29,414 nt of DNA, taken from IMG/VR virus record IMGVR_UViG_3300032093_000615, positions 1-29,414 of that record, one strand, 5' to 3'. Origin of the DNA: a virus. Position numbers and translations under genes: made by a program. The notes under the pieces are model-generated. The model saw only the letters and a list, made by a program, of their open reading frames with translations. It was not told the DNA's origin and searched no databases. Below, piece by piece: positions 16,434 to 28,313 of the stretch (positions are counted from its first letter, which is position 1; each line of letters begins with the position of its first letter).

Positions 16434-17960
16434 TCAGGCCCCCAGCCAAGATGTAGAAACACCGCTCATAGAGTAGCCGCGGCGTGGGTTCTTGTCAACG
16501 CGGGCTTCGCGCGACGCCAGCGGGTAGGCGAAGGTCACGGCGATGGCGTCCGCGGCGTCTGGCGAGGCCAGACCGCGGGCCTTCATGTCCTTCTTGCTTT
16601 CGAGAAAAATCGTACCCTTGCTGTCGGGCTTGGTCTTCGGCCCGATCAGGTCCGACTTCAGGAAGCGGTCCTCCGGGATGCTGGCCGTCTTGAGCCAGTC
16701 GCGCATGGCGCCCCACATCTCGGCCCGCTTGTTGCCGTACATGAGTTGCTTCTGCGCCTTGTTGCCGAAGTTCACGCCGCGCACCTTGTAGCGCTGCTCC
16801 TTCAGGCGGTCCACGACGCCCGCGCCGAGGCCGCCCTCGTCGATGACGGTCAGCGCAGGCTTGTACTCTTCGATGGCGTCGATGACGTGCCCGACCACTT
16901 CCATCGTGTCTGCGCCGCGCAGCCGCTTGATGGCGATCAGGTCGCGGCCTTGCCGCACCGCGATGACGGTGGCGTCGCTGCCGAACCGCGCCGGGTCCAC
17001 GCCGATGGCGATGGGCGCCGAGGTGTCCTTGTATTTGGGCCGCTTCATGGCGTCGTCCACGAGGTTGACGGCGATGAACTGGTCGTCGCCTTCCGACGGG
17101 AACTGCCCGTAGACTTCGACGTTGGCTTGATAGCTGTCGCTGCCGTACTCGTCGATGATCTGCTGGTAGAGGTTCTTGTCCGTGCCCTCGACATCACGCG
17201 CGTCGATGTTGCGTGTGCGCCAGAAGTTGCGCTTGGAGTTGAACGCTTCGTAGAAATAGCCCGTGTTGCGGCGCGGGTTGGAGAAGGCCAGATGGAAGCG
17301 GTTGGGCGTGTTTTCGGTGAAGAAGCCGTTGGCGACCGACCAGATGCTGTCGGGGATACCACTGGCTTCGTCGAAGATCAGCATCACACCGTCGAAGTTG
17401 TGAACACCTGCATAGCTGTCCGGGTTCTCTTCCGACCACAGCCGGCCTTCGACCGACCAGTAGCGCGTGCCTTTCTTCAGGTCGCGCTCGACGATCTCGG
17501 TCAGCCACTTGGCCGGCATGATGCGCGTCGCGGCGACCTCGAACCAGTGGCTGTTCAGCGCCATCGCCAGCCACTTGGTGATTTCAGCCCATGTGACCGA
17601 GCGTAGCTGCGCTTCCGAGTTGGCCGAGATGATGGTCGTCGAGCCGATGCGGGTCGAGAGCATCCAGATGGTCAGCCACGAGACCAGTGCCGACTTGCCG
17701 ATCCCGCGGCCGGAGGCGACCGCTTCGCGGAAAGTGTCATAGTCGATCTTGCCGTTGTTTGAGCGGATGTGGTCGCGGATGTCGGTCAGGATGTCGCGCT
17801 GCCATTTGCGCGGGCCGTGGAAGTGCTCCAGCGGCGTGCCCTTCTCGCCCCACGGGAAGGCCAGCAGTACGAAGGCCAGCGGGTCATCCTTGATGGCCGG
17901 CGACCACAGCCGCGCCATCAGTTCCATTTCGTCTTGTGCTGAGTAGATCGGCTGCTGCAT
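16434..17960 (-). CDS. Terminase large subunit (packaging ATPase-nuclease)
   Basis: 508 residues; P22 gp2 has 499. It pumps DNA into the procapsid and cuts the concatemer. The ATPase domain shows a Walker A variant ASGRGIGKS (82-90) and Walker B LIFDEAS (194-200). A likely coupling motif, LAFSNPRRNTG, lies at about 224-234. The RNase H-like nuclease domain shows GVDPARFGSDATVIA (320-334) with the first acidic residue D322, VIDEGGLGAGVVDRL (372-386) and SPDAADAIAV (466-475). Its start overlaps the stop of the preceding Pro/Gly/Tyr-rich gene by one base. All key acidic and lysine residues are present, so it should be active. Confidence 0.93.
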   Translation of the reverse strand: MQQPIYSAQDEMELMARLWSPAIKDDPLAFVLLAFPWGEKGTPLEHFHGPRKWQRDILTDIRDHIRSNNGKIDYDTFREAVASGRGIGKSALVSWLTIWMLSTRIGSTTIISANSEAQLRSVTWAEITKWLAMALNSHWFEVAATRIMPAKWLTEIVERDLKKGTRYWSVEGRLWSEENPDSYAGVHNFDGVMLIFDEASGIPDSIWSVANGFFTENTPNRFHLAFSNPRRNTGYFYEAFNSKRNFWRTRNIDARDVEGTDKNLYQQIIDEYGSDSYQANVEVYGQFPSEGDDQFIAVNLVDDAMKRPKYKDTSAPIAIGVDPARFGSDATVIAVRQGRDLIAIKRLRGADTMEVVGHVIDAIEEYKPALTVIDEGGLGAGVVDRLKEQRYKVRGVNFGNKAQKQLMYGNKRAEMWGAMRDWLKTASIPEDRFLKSDLIGPKTKPDSKGTIFLESKKDMKARGLASPDAADAIAVTFAYPLASREARVDKNPRRGYSMSGVSTSWLGA

Positions 17961-18463
17961 CAGAACTGCCGGCCGTACTGGCTCAGGCCGCTCATGCTGC
18001 CTATACCGCCGAACAGGCCCGCTCCGCGGCCGTAGGCGCTGCCGTAGCCCCCGAAGCTGGCGTTGCCCCTGTAGCGCCCGTACGGGGCTGCTGGCGGCCG
18101 TGCGTAGGCACTACGCGCCATGTAGTTCAGCGGGGCCTGCTGCGCCTGCCCCATCGGCGTCGGCTGCTGGTAGGGCAGGAACGGCGTCATGGTGCCGAAC
18201 GCCGGCATGGGCGGCAGGTCCGCCATCGTCGGCAGCGGCGCCATGTCCTGCGTGCCTTGCAGGCCGCCGGTAGCGTCCGACGGCTGGTCGAACCCACCAA
18301 AGTCCGCGCCGGGCGCCGGCGGCGGTGCGCTGGGGCCGGGGCTGAAGGCGTAGCCGTACTGGTAGCCACCCAGCCGCTCGTCAGTGCTGCCGGGACGCTC
18401 GTAGGCCGGACCGCCTTGTGGGGGCATGTACCGCAGATAACCGTTAGTCATCGCGTTGCGCAT
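17960..18463 (-). CDS. Pro/Gly/Tyr-rich low-complexity protein between terminase subunits
   Basis: 167 residues from ATG 18463, chosen because GGAG lies 7 bases upstream; an ATG at 18451 has no ribosome-binding site. It overlaps the small terminase by 20 bases. The protein is almost entirely Pro, Gly, Ala, Tyr, Gln and Met, with patches such as PSAPPPAPGADFGGF (about 44-58) and PYGRYRGNASFGGYGSAYGR (about 126-145). It has no clear domain, signal peptide or membrane segment and is probably disordered. Base composition is like its neighbours, and tight overlaps on both sides argue for a real gene. Interaction with the packaging complex is a guess from position. Confidence 0.55.
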   Translation of the reverse strand: MRNAMTNGYLRYMPPQGGPAYERPGSTDERLGGYQYGYAFSPGPSAPPPAPGADFGGFDQPSDATGGLQGTQDMAPLPTMADLPPMPAFGTMTPFLPYQQPTPMGQAQQAPLNYMARSAYARPPAAPYGRYRGNASFGGYGSAYGRGAGLFGGIGSMSGLSQYGRQF

Positions 18464-18902: not shown

Positions 18903-19056
18903 GGCTGCAACATACTCTGCTGCGCCTTGGCTGGCAAGTGGCGCGACAGCGTTCCCGAATACGCCGCCGCGCCACCCCCTCGACATGAACGCGCTGGAGC
19001 GTCGCGCCCATGTGGCTCCTATACCGTAAAGCCATCTGCGGTGTCGGGATGGGACA

Positions 19057-19104
19057 GTAAAAAAATTTTATTACGAAAAAAAATTTTTGCAAAAAATTTT
19101 GATG
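19057..19104. other. A/T-only tract block, possible DNA-unwinding element
   Basis: Long runs of A and T (A7 T4, A8 T5, A6 T4) broken by only a few C/G bases. Such blocks are easily melted or bent and are common at origins and promoters. A smaller A-tract follows at about 19120-19128. Function is inferred. Confidence 0.5.
19065..19092 (-). promoter_or_regulatory. Candidate leftward promoter for the packaging operon
   Basis: On the leftward strand TTGCAA (19092-19087) and TAAAAT (19070-19065) are separated by 16 bases, about 160 bases before the small terminase start. The A/T-rich context makes chance matches likely, so this is a weak candidate, but some promoter must lie here to serve the operon. 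Confidence 0.35.
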
Positions 19105-19245
19105 CGGTTTGCTGTTTTGCAAAAAATTGTTTGCGACCCGTGCCCGTGACAATCACACGCCGCTCGGCCCCACCCCCTCCCCCCTCAGCCGAAGGCTGCC
19201 CGGCAAACAGAGCCGCGCTCTGGATTTCGGCCGGACCTTTTGGCC

Positions 19246-19264
19246 TGTGGGTCATGTGGGTCAT
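19246..19264. repeat. TGTGGGTCA repeat, cluster 1 (two tandem copies)
   Basis: TGTGGGTCA occurs twice head to tail with a 9-base period (19246-19254 and 19255-19263), followed by T. The same motif recurs in two other clusters of the control region. Confidence 0.7.
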
Positions 19265-19303
19265 GGAAAACACATTGGCTGGCTGGCAGTCAGACTCACA
19301 TCA

Positions 19304-19326
19304 TTGTCTACTTGCAGGGTAGACAA
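19304..19326. promoter_or_regulatory. Dyad TTGTCTAC-N7-GTAGACAA
   Basis: Perfect 8-bp arms at 19304-19311 and 19319-19326 with a 7-base spacer. The right arm overlaps an inverted, imperfect copy of the TCTACCCTCA repeat (19315-19323). The size fits a dimeric repressor site. Confidence 0.5.
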
Positions 19327-19377
19327 ATGAGAACATCGGCCAGCCAGTCAGTCGATCGACGCAACATCCGAAAAGCC

Positions 19378-19393
19378 ACACAACAAATTGTGT
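19378..19393. repeat. Small dyad ACACAA-N4-TTGTGT
   Basis: Six-base arms at 19378-19383 and 19388-19393. The sequence is related to the stronger GCAACAC dyad at 19570 through the shared TTGTGTTGC. The significance of this short dyad alone is low. Confidence 0.35.
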
Positions 19394-19569
19394 TGCAGAT
19401 TGCCGATCGGCCGAAACTTACCCTCAAATGTGCAGCACATTTTGTTATTTTGTTGTTTAGAACAAACCGTAAACAAATCGGGAAGATTAGTTTGAGGGTA
19501 GCTGAGTAGCCAAAATGCGTCGACGCGCTCTAAGGGGCCTTTCCGGGCAATTTAGACGTATACATTTTT

Positions 19570-19586
19570 GCAACACATTGTGTTGC
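19570..19586. promoter_or_regulatory. Dyad GCAACAC-ATT-GTGTTGC
   Basis: Perfect 7-base arms (19570-19576, 19580-19586) around three bases. TTGTGTTGC is shared with 19388-19396, so the control region has two related sites. It could be an operator. Confidence 0.45.
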
Positions 19587-19603
19587 GTTTGAGCAACTGA
19601 ACC

Positions 19604-19648
19604 GGGGGGCGGAATGCGTGGGCGATGGGGGGGGCGGAATGCGTGGGC
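19604..19648 (+). repeat. Two copies of GGGGGGCGGAATGCGTGGGC
   Basis: A 20-base G-rich repeat at 19604-19623 and 19629-19648, with a period of 25 bases. The core GCGGAATGC also appears inverted at 19969-19977. Runs of six to eight G are otherwise rare in this window. Confidence 0.7.
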
Positions 19649-19674
19649 TGTGGGTCGTGTGGGTCATGTGGTCA
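19649..19674. repeat. TGTGGGTCA repeat, cluster 2 (three tandem copies)
   Basis: TGTGGGTCG (19649), TGTGGGTCA (19658) and the degenerate TGTGGTCA (19667) follow each other with a 9-base period, directly after the G-rich repeat. Confidence 0.7.
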
Positions 19675-19874
19675 CTAGTTTTCAATCGCACCCACTAGTA
19701 ACTCTTATTGCGAACCATTCTCATTAAAAACCAAATCTCCATAAATACAGATTAGCATGACCATTTAACCCACAAGCCCCAAATCACTAGCTTTCTTGCG
19801 GGTTTGAGCGTGGTCACCCGTCTACCCTCATAATTACCCACACACGTACCAAAACGCCCACGTTTTCGACCCAC

Positions 19875-19894
19875 TACTGACATCAATGTCAGTA
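19875..19894. promoter_or_regulatory. 20-bp near-perfect palindrome, operator-like
   Basis: TACTGACAT and its exact complement ATGTCAGTA flank the two bases CA (19875-19894). The shape and size are those of a phage repressor or activator site. It lies 11 bases upstream of a TATAAT hexamer, so a protein bound here would control that promoter. The bound protein is not identified. Confidence 0.65.
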
Positions 19895-19905
19895 CCGTAA
19901 CACTT

Positions 19906-19911
19906 TATAAT
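19906..19911 (+). promoter_or_regulatory. Candidate -10 element TATAAT of a rightward promoter
   Basis: An exact TATAAT with no good -35 at normal spacing; the operator-like palindrome occupies that place instead. This arrangement suits an activator-dependent promoter or a repressed one. It lies about 150 bases before the first gene of the rightward block. Confidence 0.45.
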
Positions 19912-19926
19912 ATACGCCCCGAAAAC

Positions 19927-19957
19927 TGTGGGTCATTTAGCCTGACTTGTGGGTCAT
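19927..19957. repeat. TGTGGGTCAT repeat, cluster 3 (two spaced copies)
   Basis: TGTGGGTCAT at 19927-19936 and 19948-19957. The copies are 21 bases apart, two helical turns, so proteins bound to them would face the same side. They lie between the palindrome and the first gene. Confidence 0.7.
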
Positions 19958-19990
19958 TCTCACGCCCCGCATTCCGCAACAAAAAGTGTA

Positions 19991-20018
19991 TTGCATCTAC
20001 CCTCAAAATCTGTATTCT
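19991..20018 (+). promoter_or_regulatory. Candidate rightward promoter overlapping a TCTACCCTCA repeat
   Basis: TTGCAT (19991-19996) and TATTCT (20013-20018) are 16 bases apart, and the repeat at 19996-20005 fills the spacer. Transcription would start near 20025 and leave a short leader to the ATG at 20058. The hexamers are only fair matches to a sigma-70 consensus. Confidence 0.4.
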
Positions 20019-20057
20019 GCGCAGGCCAGACAGGCACAGACAACGGAGCAAAACGAC

Positions 20058-20264
20058 ATGACCTATGAAATTTTCGAGACTAGCGGCATTGGTCCAGCCC
20101 GCCGCAAGACTGTGCACGCAAGCGCTGACACGCTCGCAGACGCAGTCGCGCTTGCGCGTTCCATGTTCAACGTGATCGACCTTGAAATTGACGCGCTCAA
20201 CCCGCGCTGCGCTGATTTTTATACCGCCTGCAACCGCGTTATGTCGATCGAGCCGTGGGCTTGA
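20058..20264 (+). CDS. First small gene of the rightward block, function unknown
   Basis: 68 residues starting MTYEIFETSGIGPARRKTVH. ATG 20058 is chosen because GGAGCAAAACGAC directly precedes it, the leader shared by many genes of this block; the frame is open further upstream but without a ribosome-binding site. The middle (ASADTLADAVALARSMFNVI, about 21-40) is probably a helix. There are two cysteines near the end (RCADFYTACNRV) and no recognised motif. Being first after the control region, it would be expressed early. Confidence 0.6.
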   Translation: MTYEIFETSGIGPARRKTVHASADTLADAVALARSMFNVIDLEIDALNPRCADFYTACNRVMSIEPWA

Positions 20265-21397: not shown

Positions 21398-21991
21398 ATG
21401 ACCGACATCGCACACCCTAATTCGATCGCCGTCCCGGCCGTCATGCTGAAGGCCGCGCTGATCTGCGCATCGACCGAACAAGCCCGTTACTATCTGAACG
21501 GCGTTTACGTGGATCCGAAAGGCTTTCTCGTTTCGACCGACGGCCACCGCCTATTCTGCGGCAAGATCGACGTTAGCGACGTTGCGCCGTTCGACGGCTG
21601 GATCATCCCCCGCGACGCCGTCAAGCGCGCGCTGACAGGCTTTAAAGCGGATCTTATCGGCATAAGCCCGGCGCACGTCGGCGACATTGCGTGCCGGTCT
21701 GTTGACGGATCTTTTCCCGATTGGCGGCACGTTGTGCCGACCGAATTGAGCGGCGCGACCGCACAGTTCAATCCAGCTTACGTTGCCGACATGGGCAAGA
21801 TCGGGGAGATCCTGTTCGGCCGCGGCAAGCCGGTCCTGCCCGCGCATATCCATCACAACGGCGAAGGCCCGGCTGGCGTTACCTTCCCAACCTGCGCTGA
21901 TGCTTTCGCCGTCCTTATGCCAATCCGATCGGCGCATACGGATCCGACCGACGCATGGGCTTCCCGATCGGCCATGATCGGCATTGGCTGA
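21398..21991 (+). CDS. Shortened DNA sliding clamp-like protein (DnaN-related)
   Basis: 197 residues; bacterial beta clamps have about 366. Residues 12-115 match clamp domain II: VPAVMLKAALICASTEQARY (compare E. coli MKRLIEATQFSMAHQDVRY), YLNGVYVD, the hallmark STDGHRL (46-52), WIIPRDAVKRAL (68-79) and DGSFPDWRHVVP (103-114). Residues about 123-177 (FNPAYVADMGKIGEILF, then FAVLMPIRS) resemble the end of domain III, where E. coli has VSYVLDVLNAL and VMPMRL. Domain I is absent and domain III is shortened. A ring could still form from more subunits. The ribosome-binding site is GAGGAAACGAC, a variant of the block's leader. Its partner is probably the polymerase encoded at the right edge. Confidence 0.8.
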   Translation: MTDIAHPNSIAVPAVMLKAALICASTEQARYYLNGVYVDPKGFLVSTDGHRLFCGKIDVSDVAPFDGWIIPRDAVKRALTGFKADLIGISPAHVGDIACRSVDGSFPDWRHVVPTELSGATAQFNPAYVADMGKIGEILFGRGKPVLPAHIHHNGEGPAGVTFPTCADAFAVLMPIRSAHTDPTDAWASRSAMIGIG

Positions 21992-24170: not shown

Positions 24171-24499
24171 TGGCCCCCAACACCTTCATGCCGGTCGGCG
24201 ACGGCGACGGCTACGGCTACGGCGACGGCTACGGCTACGGCGACGGCGACGGCTACGGCTACGGCTACGGCTACGGCTACGGCTACGGCAACGGCAACGG
24301 CTACGGCAACGGCTACGGCAACGGCGACGGCGACGGCTACGGCTACGGCTACGGCAACGGCTACGGCTACGGCTACGGCTACGGCAACGGCTACGGCAAC
24401 GGCTATGGCTACGGCAACGGCGACGGCGACGGCGACGGCAACGGCTATGGCTCTGTCGGCAATTCCGACAAGATTAGGAGGACTGGGGACTATGACTGA
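24170..24499 (+). CDS. Gly-X dipeptide repeat protein (Gly-Tyr/Asp/Asn)
   Basis: 109 residues, starting in a TGATG overlap with the preceding gene. After MAPNTFMPV, residues 10-93 are 42 uninterrupted Gly-X dipeptides: X is Tyr 23 times, Asp 10 times, Asn 9 times. The tail is GSVGNSDKIRRTGDYD. At the DNA level this is a hexamer array GGC-NAC (24197-24448) in which only N changes apart from two TAT codons. The protein must be flexible and Tyr-rich, like sequences that self-associate. It has no known family. The tail and both gene junctions keep the neighbouring frame pattern, so I take it as translated. Function unknown. Confidence 0.65.
   Translation: MAPNTFMPVGDGDGYGYGDGYGYGDGDGYGYGYGYGYGYGNGNGYGNGYGNGDGDGYGYGYGNGYGYGYGYGNGYGNGYGYGNGDGDGDGNGYGSVGNSDKIRRTGDYD
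24197..24448 (+). repeat. Hexanucleotide array GGC-NAC, 42 units
   Basis: Forty-two tandem six-base units GGCTAC, GGCGAC and GGCAAC with no insertion or frameshift. GGCCAC never occurs. Because units are two codons long, gain or loss of units would keep the frame. Confidence 0.95.
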
Positions 24500-25620: not shown

Positions 25621-25693
25621 CCTGCGCCACTGGCTCTGGGTCAACTTCGGCTGGGACATTTACGACTGGAGTCCTGATGACCTTCGTTTCTAA
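25610..25693 (+). CDS. 27-residue aromatic-rich microprotein
   Basis: The frame MTPSLRHWLWVNFGWDIYDW continues SPDDLRF. It overlaps the end of the preceding gene by 11 bases and the start of the next by 17. Five tryptophans in 27 residues is unusual and suggests binding to membrane or a protein surface if translated. There is no clear ribosome-binding site, so it may depend on coupling or not be expressed. Confidence 0.35.
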   Translation: MTPSLRHWLWVNFGWDIYDWSPDDLRF

Positions 25694-25889
25694 CCCCTTC
25701 GGTCGCCCGACGACCTATCCCTTCGCCGCGATGGACGTAGGCGAGACCGTCAAGCTGGACGTGCCCACCGCCGCCGACGTTAAACGCATCGCCCGCAATG
25801 CCAGCCAGTATGGCCTGCGGCACAACCGCGGCTATCGCTGCAAGACCGACCGCGTCACGCGCATCATGACGGTGACGCGCGTTAGATAA
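25677..25889 (+). CDS. Small basic protein, last gene of the rightward block
   Basis: 70 residues: MTFVSNPFGRPTTYPFAAMD, VGETVKLDVPTAADVKRIAR, then NASQYGLRHNRGYRCKTDRV and TRIMTVTRVR. The order strand, helix (about 31-44), basic loop, strand matches small phage proteins in which a helix with ...R..A..Y....G....K...  precedes a beta strand; nucleic acid binding is plausible. It ends 5 bases before the convergent terminator. No family name is recognised with certainty. Confidence 0.6.
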   Translation: MTFVSNPFGRPTTYPFAAMDVGETVKLDVPTAADVKRIARNASQYGLRHNRGYRCKTDRVTRIMTVTRVR

Positions 25890-25952: not shown

Positions 25953-28313
25953 CTAGCGGATGCCTACCACTTTCTTGTCGTCCGATGCAACCCCATCCTG
26001 TTCAACCATGCGCCGCAACTCGGACTTGCCCCACTTCAGGCGCTCCATCATCGCCCGTTCGGCGAAGACCTGCTTTTTGGTCGGAAAGTCCCGCGAGTGC
26101 AGCCGACCGCAGTCCACCCAGTTCGCTTCCTTGAGCGCGTGCAGCACGACCGCCTGCGGCACCTTGGCCACCGACGTTTGCAGATGGTCCGCAATGGTAG
26201 CGCATACGCGGTACAGCGGCCCGGCGATCACGCCGCGGTTGAACGGCGCGATCCGGCTGTGGATCATATCGACGATGCTGCTCTCGGTCATGCTCATGCC
26301 ATGCTCGACCATGTTCAGCTTCCATTCCGTCACCGGCGGCTTGGCCGCAGGGTTGAACGCTGAAACGTCGCGCTGGTGCAACCACGCCGCGATCTTGGCA
26401 AAGCCTTCCCGCTTGTACCATGCCCACATCTTGACCGCCTCGTCCTCGTCCATGCGCGGCGCGCGGCTCCAGACGCAGAACCAGCGCCGGTCCTGCGACG
26501 GGATCGTGATCGGCACTGCGTCATTGGTGAACGCGATCACCAGCAGACGGTTCAGCATCTCGTACGGGTGCAGGCCCTTGCGGTTGATCGTGATCGTCTC
26601 CGGCGGCGCGGCGATGATCGGCTTCAGCTTGTTCGCCAGCGCCCGGCGCTCCTTGGCCTCTGGCTCCTTCAACTCGTTCAGGATCACCACTTCAGCCTGC
26701 AAGCCGTAGCCCCACTGGCTGTCCAGCCCCTTCGTCTCGATGATCGACCGGTTGTGCTGGTGTTCGCCGCCGATGGCCCACAGGAATGGTGCCCACATGG
26801 TGTCCTTGCCGCTGCCCTCGTCGCCGCCGTGCAGCACTGCGTGGTTGATCTTGATGTTGGGGTGCTGCACCTTGAACGCCATCACGTTCAAGACATGCTC
26901 CAGTTCGGCCGGTTCTTCGATCAGCGTGCGGCAGTGGTCCAGCCACGGCGCGATGTCGCGGTCGCTGATGATGTCGCTGCCGGACAGGTCCGGCCGGTGG
27001 TTGATCCATGTGTTGCCGTATACCAGCCCATCGCGCGCCACCAGCACGCCCTCGCCCGGCGCGTAGGTCACGCCGACCAGCGCCTTCGCGCCGTACTCCT
27101 GCCGGCGCTCGTCGAAGTAGATGCTGGCCTGCACGCGGTTCTTCTTCGCACCGTGCATCGACTTGCACTCGACGTGCCGGAACAGCGCGTTGAAGACGTT
27201 GCGCGGCAACTCCCGCCGCGTCACCATGTCGAAATAGCTGTCGTCGGACTGAATGTAGGCGAAGCGCTCGAACCACTCGGCCTTCTCCAGCCGCCCGGCT
27301 TCCTTGCGCTCGACTTCCTTCACAATCGCCGACGCCTCGTCGGGAAACGCTTCGGTCGGCATGATCTTGTCGGCCATCATCTTCATGCGCTCGGCGATCA
27401 GTTCGTCGCGCAGCCCCGGCGTCACCCGCGGGCCGTCGTTCTCGGCGACCCAGTCGAGGAAGGTGCGGCTGTCGAGGTGCTGGCAGTGGCCGTGGTAGCA
27501 GCAGAACGAGCGGTCCAGCGGCTTGTAGCGGGCCTCCAGCGCGCCGTCGGTGTGTTCGGCATGGTTAGGGCAGACGATGCCGCACCAGCCGTCGTTGTTG
27601 ACGCGTGACAGCACGAGGTTGTTGTCCGACAGCCATTGCAGCACGGTGTCGCCGCCCGTGTCCCGGATCGACACATGCCGAAACTCGGCCGTGTCCGCCT
27701 CGGCCGGCACGACGCCCAGCGCGTCGCAAATCTCGCCCAGCGTGTACTCGCGCTCAGGGTGAAACTCGACCAGCCGCGCCGGAAAGTTGTTCCGCCCGCG
27801 CTTCAGGTTGATGCTGCCCGGCAGGCGGCAGTTGCGCACAGGATTGTTCGCGCCCGGATCGGTATAGCCTGCGTCGGCGATGACCTTGATCGCGGCGGTG
27901 AACTCCTGCTTGGTCGGCTGCGTGCTGAACGCGTAGCCCCACTGGAACGACCCCTCGGACGTTTCCATGATCCACGTCGGTTCGATGAGTGGCGTCTTCG
28001 ACTTCGTGCCAATGTCATCCAGCATCATGAACAGGACGAAGTCGCAGTACTCGCCGCGAGCGCCCGGCTTGTTGTCCTTGAAGCGGTCGATGATGAACGA
28101 GCCGGTGTTGACGTACCACGCCTCGCCATCCTTGATGCGGGCCTTGTCCGGCATGAACGCCGGGAACGTCGCCTTGGGCGCGCCGTCGCCGTGGTAGACG
28201 ATGTTGCCCCCATCATCCAGCTTCGGCTTCTGCTTCAGCAGCAGCGCGGTCTCGCCTTCAACGTCGGCCAGACCTGTGATGAACTCGATAAACTTAGTGC
28301 GATCCTCACTCAT
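25953..28313 (-). CDS. Primase-helicase (AEP-like primase fused to superfamily 3-type helicase)
   Basis: 786 residues. The N-terminal part resembles a RepB-type archaeo-eukaryotic primase: acidic motif FVLFMMLDDIGTKSK (92-106, D99 and D100), SFQWGYAFS (122-130) and NCRLPGSINLKRG (161-173). A zinc-binding-like cluster follows, WCGIVCPNHAEH (243-254) with CCYHGHCQH (271-279). The C-terminal part is a helicase like the DUF5906/D5 group: Walker A GGDEGSGKDT (496-505), Walker B EVVILNEL (541-548), sensor-like VIAFTNDAVPI (592-602), and DRRW (608-611). It would unwind DNA and prime synthesis for the neighbouring polymerase. The ribosome-binding site AGGAG overlaps the polymerase stop, so the two are coupled. 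Confidence 0.85.
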   Translation of the reverse strand: MSEDRTKFIEFITGLADVEGETALLLKQKPKLDDGGNIVYHGDGAPKATFPAFMPDKARIKDGEAWYVNTGSFIIDRFKDNKPGARGEYCDFVLFMMLDDIGTKSKTPLIEPTWIMETSEGSFQWGYAFSTQPTKQEFTAAIKVIADAGYTDPGANNPVRNCRLPGSINLKRGRNNFPARLVEFHPEREYTLGEICDALGVVPAEADTAEFRHVSIRDTGGDTVLQWLSDNNLVLSRVNNDGWCGIVCPNHAEHTDGALEARYKPLDRSFCCYHGHCQHLDSRTFLDWVAENDGPRVTPGLRDELIAERMKMMADKIMPTEAFPDEASAIVKEVERKEAGRLEKAEWFERFAYIQSDDSYFDMVTRRELPRNVFNALFRHVECKSMHGAKKNRVQASIYFDERRQEYGAKALVGVTYAPGEGVLVARDGLVYGNTWINHRPDLSGSDIISDRDIAPWLDHCRTLIEEPAELEHVLNVMAFKVQHPNIKINHAVLHGGDEGSGKDTMWAPFLWAIGGEHQHNRSIIETKGLDSQWGYGLQAEVVILNELKEPEAKERRALANKLKPIIAAPPETITINRKGLHPYEMLNRLLVIAFTNDAVPITIPSQDRRWFCVWSRAPRMDEDEAVKMWAWYKREGFAKIAAWLHQRDVSAFNPAAKPPVTEWKLNMVEHGMSMTESSIVDMIHSRIAPFNRGVIAGPLYRVCATIADHLQTSVAKVPQAVVLHALKEANWVDCGRLHSRDFPTKKQVFAERAMMERLKWGKSELRRMVEQDGVASDDKKVVGIR

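Follow-up and report, generated by a model that had tools for sequence, protein, structure and literature searches.

Repeats in the control region of an uncultivated tailed phage covary with the C-terminal domain of its primase-helicase

The Rep helicases of Staphylococcus aureus pathogenicity islands (SaPI) and the Cch2 helicases of the staphylococcal cassette chromosome mec (SCCmec) were reported to bind iterons through their C-terminal domain (PMC7581432). In the RepA-ori system of the phage-inducible chromosomal island-like element (PLE) of Vibrio cholerae, the DNA-binding domain covaries with the origin and the modules have been exchanged; a phage nuclease cutting at the iterons has been proposed as the selective force behind these exchanges (PMC8263062). 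Here, we describe a probable system of this kind in a P22-like tailed phage genome fragment, the IMG/VR record IMGVR_UViG_3300032093_000615, analyzed over its entire 29,414 bases (the window). It consists of TGTGGGTCA repeats in the control region and of a primase-helicase that is proposed to read them.

The system resembles the Rep-ori of SaPI and of phage-inducible chromosomal islands (PICI), but it turns over frequently, and its proposed origin stands 6 kb away from the gene of the initiator. As in SaPI/PICI and SCCmec Cch2, a helicase, in some cases carrying a primase part as well, would act as initiator by placing its C-terminal domain on short iterons, binding being proposed in the present case, and allelic Pri-Rep variants exist in SaPI/PICI as they do here (PMC7581432, PMC6092414). 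The trait of this type of initiator, a helicase with a C-terminal DNA-binding domain, is present in the window by prediction. In SaPI/PICI, however, rep is followed immediately by the origin, whereas the proposed origin of the window (18987-20057) is ~6 kb from the 3' end of the gene (25953) and beside terS. Moreover, SaPI/PICI are integrated satellites or islands, whereas these are free-standing phages with structural genes and a family-A polymerase, and no integrase was found in 16 of their genomes.

The PLE system shares the covariation of DNA-binding domain and origin. It differs in being a satellite with two types, a RepA_N domain and semi-palindromic repeats of ~30 bp, whereas here an asymmetric 10-bp repeat comes in many types and a winged helix is proposed as its reader. 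A further likeness is offered by the alpha protein of satellite phage P4, a primase-helicase with a C-terminal origin-binding domain, ori/crr iterons and an origin away from its gene. P4 alpha was not a structural match among the 50 listed Foldseek hits for the C-terminal domain. The O protein of lambda is not known to be a helicase or a primase. Like the protein proposed here, lambdoid O is a phage initiator acting on iterons beside an A/T-rich region, although the lambda iterons sit within gene O (PMC7466680). By the sequence of its helicase part, the closest solved relative is the primase-polymerase of phage NrS-1 (PDB 6k9c and 6k9e), in which primase is joined to helicase as it is here. 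NrS-1 primes on an 8-nt template sequence present in two copies, and the text of that paper mentions neither a winged helix nor repeats (PMC7102993).

The repeat array and its counterparts in related phages

Besides the primase-helicase and a family-A DNA polymerase, the window encodes terminase, portal and coat-type structural proteins. The structural genes run leftward from the start of a terS-like gene at 18986, whereas the first of the small early genes, which run rightward, begins at 20058. These divergent sets are separated by 1.07 kb, the sole long non-coding stretch of the window. The GC content is 0.49 over 19001-20000 against ~0.63, and an Rfam search of the control region (18987..20057) gave no match. 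The following features were located in it:

18987..20057, no strand: control region, proposed origin; no credible gene, and the iteron arrays of relatives stand in the equivalent place
19057..19130, no strand: A/T-rich block adjoining the array, candidate unwinding element (sequence; inverted repeat I2)
19246..19254, plus strand: iteron 1, TGTGGGTCA, exact
19255..19263, plus strand: iteron 2, exact, tandem to iteron 1 with a 9-bp period
19649..19657, plus strand: iteron 3, TGTGGGTCG, one mismatch, in 9-bp register
19658..19666, plus strand: iteron 4, exact, tandem to iteron 3
19667..19675, plus strand: degenerate copy TGTGGTCAC, one base missing (sequence)
19766..19774, minus strand: one-mismatch copy TGTGGGTTA (mismatch search)
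19834..19842, minus strand: one-mismatch copy TGTGGGTAA (mismatch search)
19927..19935, plus strand: iteron 5, exact
19948..19956, plus strand: iteron 6, exact, 21 bp past iteron 5

Exact TGTGGGTCA occurs five times (19246, 19255, 19658, 19927 and 19948, all on the plus strand), always inside the 711 bp of 19246-19956 and nowhere else in the window. Dinucleotide shuffles gave an expectation of 0.22 and never reached five copies; with one mismatch, 23 matches were found in the window vs 5.8 expected. The initial annotation had counted seven repeats, the five exact ones together with TGTGGGTCG at 19649 (one mismatch) and the degenerate TGTGGTCAC at 19667. It gave the coordinates, the 9-bp period and the 21-bp spacing correctly, and the count over the rest of the genome that it had suggested gave no exact copy elsewhere in the window, but it overlooked the two minus-strand copies at 19766-19774 and 19834-19842.

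Two annotated phage records are related to the window, MW202483 and OR003940 (Phage DSL-LC05); across the terminase region, their nucleotide identity to it is ~70%. Eighty related viral contigs were retrieved by terminase, and four more scans with primase queries brought the set to 175 distinct genomes in which both the control region and the primase were readable. Each of the 80 contigs was searched upstream of terminase with no motif fixed beforehand, and repeat classes were set by exact-core counts. All distances, trees and covariation reported below derive from metagenomic contigs.

Most of the contigs retrieved by terminase carry a multi-copy 9- to 10-mer upstream of this gene, of differing sequence. 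An equivalent array stands beside the terminase genes in 156 genomes, with a median of 8 copies and with a sequence that varies by lineage (TTTGGGTCAT, TCTGGGTCAT, TGTGGACAAT, GGGACGTCAT and TTTAGGCTAT, among others). Of the 755 spacings between same-strand neighbors in these genomes, 386 measure 9 bp and 65 measure 10 bp, and tandem 9-bp pairs on both strands are found again with differing repeat sequences. In 15 long genomes, the control region exceeds the remaining sequence ~83-fold in its density of the phage's own 10-mer. The relatives also have a 50-mer of ~80% A+T in or near the array, at a variable position. Repeats shared by several genomes (relatives carry L numbers) are these:

TGTGGGTCA: the window, L005 (11 exact copies), L045, L046
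TCTGGGTCA: L020, L041, L043
TTTGGGTCA: L052, L058, L066
TGTGAGTCA: L055, L061
TGTGGACAA: L047, L063, L064 (11-12 exact copies)
GGACGTCAT: L013, L032, L036
TTAGGCTAT: L018, L022, L025

DSL-LC05 has CAGTGGGTCAG repeats at the equivalent place (33580-33990), and MW202483 has a different repeat, ATGTAAAC. The repeat class does not parallel the remainder of the genome. The TerL proteins of L052 and L056, for example, are 99.6% identical, but their repeats differ (TTTGGGTCA and TGTGAGTCA, respectively), and the repeats of L028 and L030 differ despite 98% identity in TerS. Conservation in relatives had been put forward as a test that could refute the reading of the repeats as iterons. The exact sequence is indeed missing from most relatives, while the array, its place and its layout are conserved. 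A test on the exact sequence is misleading here, because the repeat sequence and its reader appear to change together.

Other repeats share the control region. A second one, TTTGAGGGTA, which is possibly an operator, has four copies (19419-19428, minus; 19491-19500, plus; 19823-19832, minus; 19998-20007, minus); L018 carries several TTTGAGGATA copies, and at least two TGAGG(G/A)TA copies are present in 10 of the 175 genomes. Two near-palindromic copies of CAACA(A/C)ATTGTGTTGC (19381-19396 and 19571-19586) are separated by 190 bp. A 25-bp tandem repeat, beginning GGGGGGCGGAATGCGTGGGC, occupies 19604-19653, and an inverted GCATTCCGC copy lies near the early side (19965-19977).

Covariation of the repeat with the primase-helicase

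The protein proposed as initiator, and the parts of it that are discussed below, are encoded as follows:

25953..28313, minus strand: primase-helicase, 786 aa, proposed initiator (PHROG DNA primase; Pfam; NrS-1 match; covariation)
25956..26327, minus strand: aa 663-786, predicted winged helix at the C terminus together with the tail, proposed to bind the iterons (AlphaFold2; best predictor of iteron class)
26082..26099, minus strand: wing-loop codons 739-744 (H739, R741, P744), proposed specificity residues (covariation)

The central part of the protein has a Pfam match to DUF5906 (42.7 bits; cut-off, 27.6), a weak RepB_primase match was obtained in addition, and aa 475-619 match the NrS-1 chains 6k9c/6k9e (E value of 4.6e-8). 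The AlphaFold2 model of the C-terminal region has the order helix-helix-strand-helix-helix-strand-strand, with a pLDDT of ~90 over most of aa 670-765. The domain is thus predicted to be a winged helix whose final hairpin has residues 739-744 in its loop. A sequence profile of this domain found no match in the PDB.

Nearest-neighbor prediction of the repeat class, with clones masked, was run on the 175-genome set. Along the primase-helicase, the prediction is 0.21 to 0.32 at the N terminus (0.21 for aa 1-60) and climbs to 0.87 at aa 691-750, whereas TerL gives 0.28, TerS 0.31, polymerase 0.26, portal 0.26 and shuffled labels 0.18. The neighboring small genes f7 and f13 reach 0.69 and 0.75 where the primase C terminus reaches 1.00, as would be expected from linkage. 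Within the window's own background (49 genomes with the 25677-25889 gene), the prediction is weaker, at 0.46. Apart from the primase-helicase, no protein was found that varies in step with the repeat.

The same pattern is seen between close phages of different classes. Identity is ~90 to 99% for the polymerase, for the protein encoded downstream of the polymerase and for the terminase, but it falls to ~60% between class C and classes A/D for the latter part of the primase-helicase. Between classes C and E, the differences fall mainly in aa 600-660 and 720-787, with aa 500-600 being 99 to 100% identical.

Over the whole primase-helicase, mutual information with the repeat class peaks at columns 741 and 739, with 744 close behind. 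The residue-base tallies, made on 104 non-redundant genomes, pair G at motif position 2 with R/K741 in 57/57, C with T/V in 18/18 and T with G/S/A in 22/26. At position 4, A goes with G/N739 in 31/32 and G with K/A/H739 in 71/71, and ACA at positions 6-8 goes with D744 in 21/21, a residue seen nowhere else. The repeat TGTGGGTCA itself is common to the window and L005 (H739, R741) and to the distant A/D lineages (K739, R741), whose primases are <60% identical to that of the window.

The tree of the 104 initiators (built on primase aa 1-600) requires no fewer than 49 changes in the 10-mer. Phylogenetically independent pairs agree in 13/13 cases when motif position 2 is set against residue 741 (P = 0.00024) and in 7/7 for ACA and D744 (P = 0.016); control columns showed no agreement in this test. 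With training limited to primases <85% identical over aa 1-600, the wing residues alone recover the exact 10-mer in 55% of cases, whereas random sets of columns reach 21% (44% for the best of them). DSL-LC05, which has a different primase, could serve with its CAGTGGGTCAG repeats as an independent test case for the residue-base code. By eye, the C terminus of that primase (L140:17521-18069, minus strand) resembles a helix and a hairpin with KKK.

Replication origin, operator or packaging site

The control region is probably a replication origin in which the TGTGGGTCA repeats are iterons bound by the C-terminal winged helix of the primase-helicase. This reading is favored because the array is family-wide, keeps a constant place and a 9-bp tandem layout, and covaries with the winged helix of the primase-helicase and not with terminase, polymerase or portal. 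Of the two roles offered by the initial annotation, replication origin or cooperative binding of a regulator, these observations back the former. From them we infer physical binding, melting and origin firing. The repeats would be double-stranded sites for the winged helix of the phage's own primase-helicase, several copies of which may assemble on the tandem 9-bp-spaced sites of both strands and so place the helicase ring on the nearby A/T-rich stretch. Once opened, this stretch would be primed by the N-terminal primase domain of the same protein and extended by the family-A DNA polymerase of the phage. The repeat and its wing loop would change together, lineage by lineage.

Several results weigh against this assignment. 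Neither GC skew, which had been suggested as a check, nor GC3 skew gave a signal that would support an origin. No clear array was seen in L261, L369 and L370, members of the same primase family, and those of L010 and L358 are weak. Foldseek returned weak winged-helix matches for the C-terminal domain (PadR, LmrR and MarR types), none of them significant. In the independent pairs, position 4 and residue 739 agree in 4-5 to 0 of 6, with a P value of only 0.06, and C vs T at position 2 is not significant. It is also possible that the sites of the array, lying as they do between divergent operons, have a regulatory (operator) role in addition to that of an origin.

A purely regulatory array, with the repeats as operators for the divergent early and late operons, would suit its location between the two transcription units and a promoter-like site that overlaps the iteron at 19927. 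The regulator would be a separate small protein or an autoregulating primase-helicase. A separate DNA-binding protein that varies with the repeat class was not found, however: TerS (94 to 98% identical) and the small basic protein encoded at 25677-25889 are nearly constant across phages with different repeats, and both were rejected as readers. f7 and f13 predict the class less well than the primase C terminus, and the partial tracking by class-specific small proteins was attributed to linkage. The "repressor C" and "transcriptional regulator" of DSL-LC05 have no homologues in the group. The absence of integrase from the 16 related genomes leaves no sign of lysogeny, and a prophage state was rejected on this ground and because matches in GTDB occur only in metagenome bins, none of them in an isolate genome. 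We therefore regard this alternative as unlikely.

Still less probable are two other binders. The array begins beside the terS-like gene in these phages, as pac/cos-like packaging sites for the small terminase subunit might, but TerS has no more predictive value for the class of repeat than genes unrelated to it, and the L028/L030 pair combines near-identical TerS with different repeats. Sites for host DnaA or a phage-encoded DnaA-like protein are suggested by the repeat of one lineage, TGTGGACAA, which is one mismatch off the DnaA box TGTGGATAA, and by Bac_DnaA_C-like proteins in MW202483 (a small protein, 31477-31671), L060 and L077. Such a protein is lacking in the window and in most relatives searched, the repeats of other lineages are unlike DnaA boxes, and the covariation is with the primase-helicase. 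Both proposals are accordingly very improbable.

Some further observations concern the surroundings of the system. The open reading frame (ORF) at 17960-18463, between terL and the terS-like gene, has no relative in the set, Pfam or PHROGs, and in many relatives, unlike in the window, terS abuts terL. The early gene at 21398-21991 has a weak match, slightly below the cut-off, to the central domain of the DNA polymerase III beta clamp. A long GGC(T/G/A)AC hexanucleotide run occupies 24180-24450.

Turnover of the proposed origin and its reader

The repeat and its proposed reader switch repeatedly between otherwise near-identical phages, and a few wing residues may set the specificity. We tentatively suggest that the identity of the origin is under diversifying selection, although we hold this to be somewhat less likely than not. 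Equally speculative is the notion that origins switch as if escaping decoy origins or satellites, nucleases that cut origins, or interference with replication by co-infecting relatives.

Taken as an origin and its initiator, the array and the primase-helicase would provide this assignment for a widespread group of uncultivated aquatic phages. More than 100 natural pairs of repeat and reading domain are at hand, so that a residue-to-base code may be read from them. The system also raises the question of why phages should change the address of their origin so frequently.
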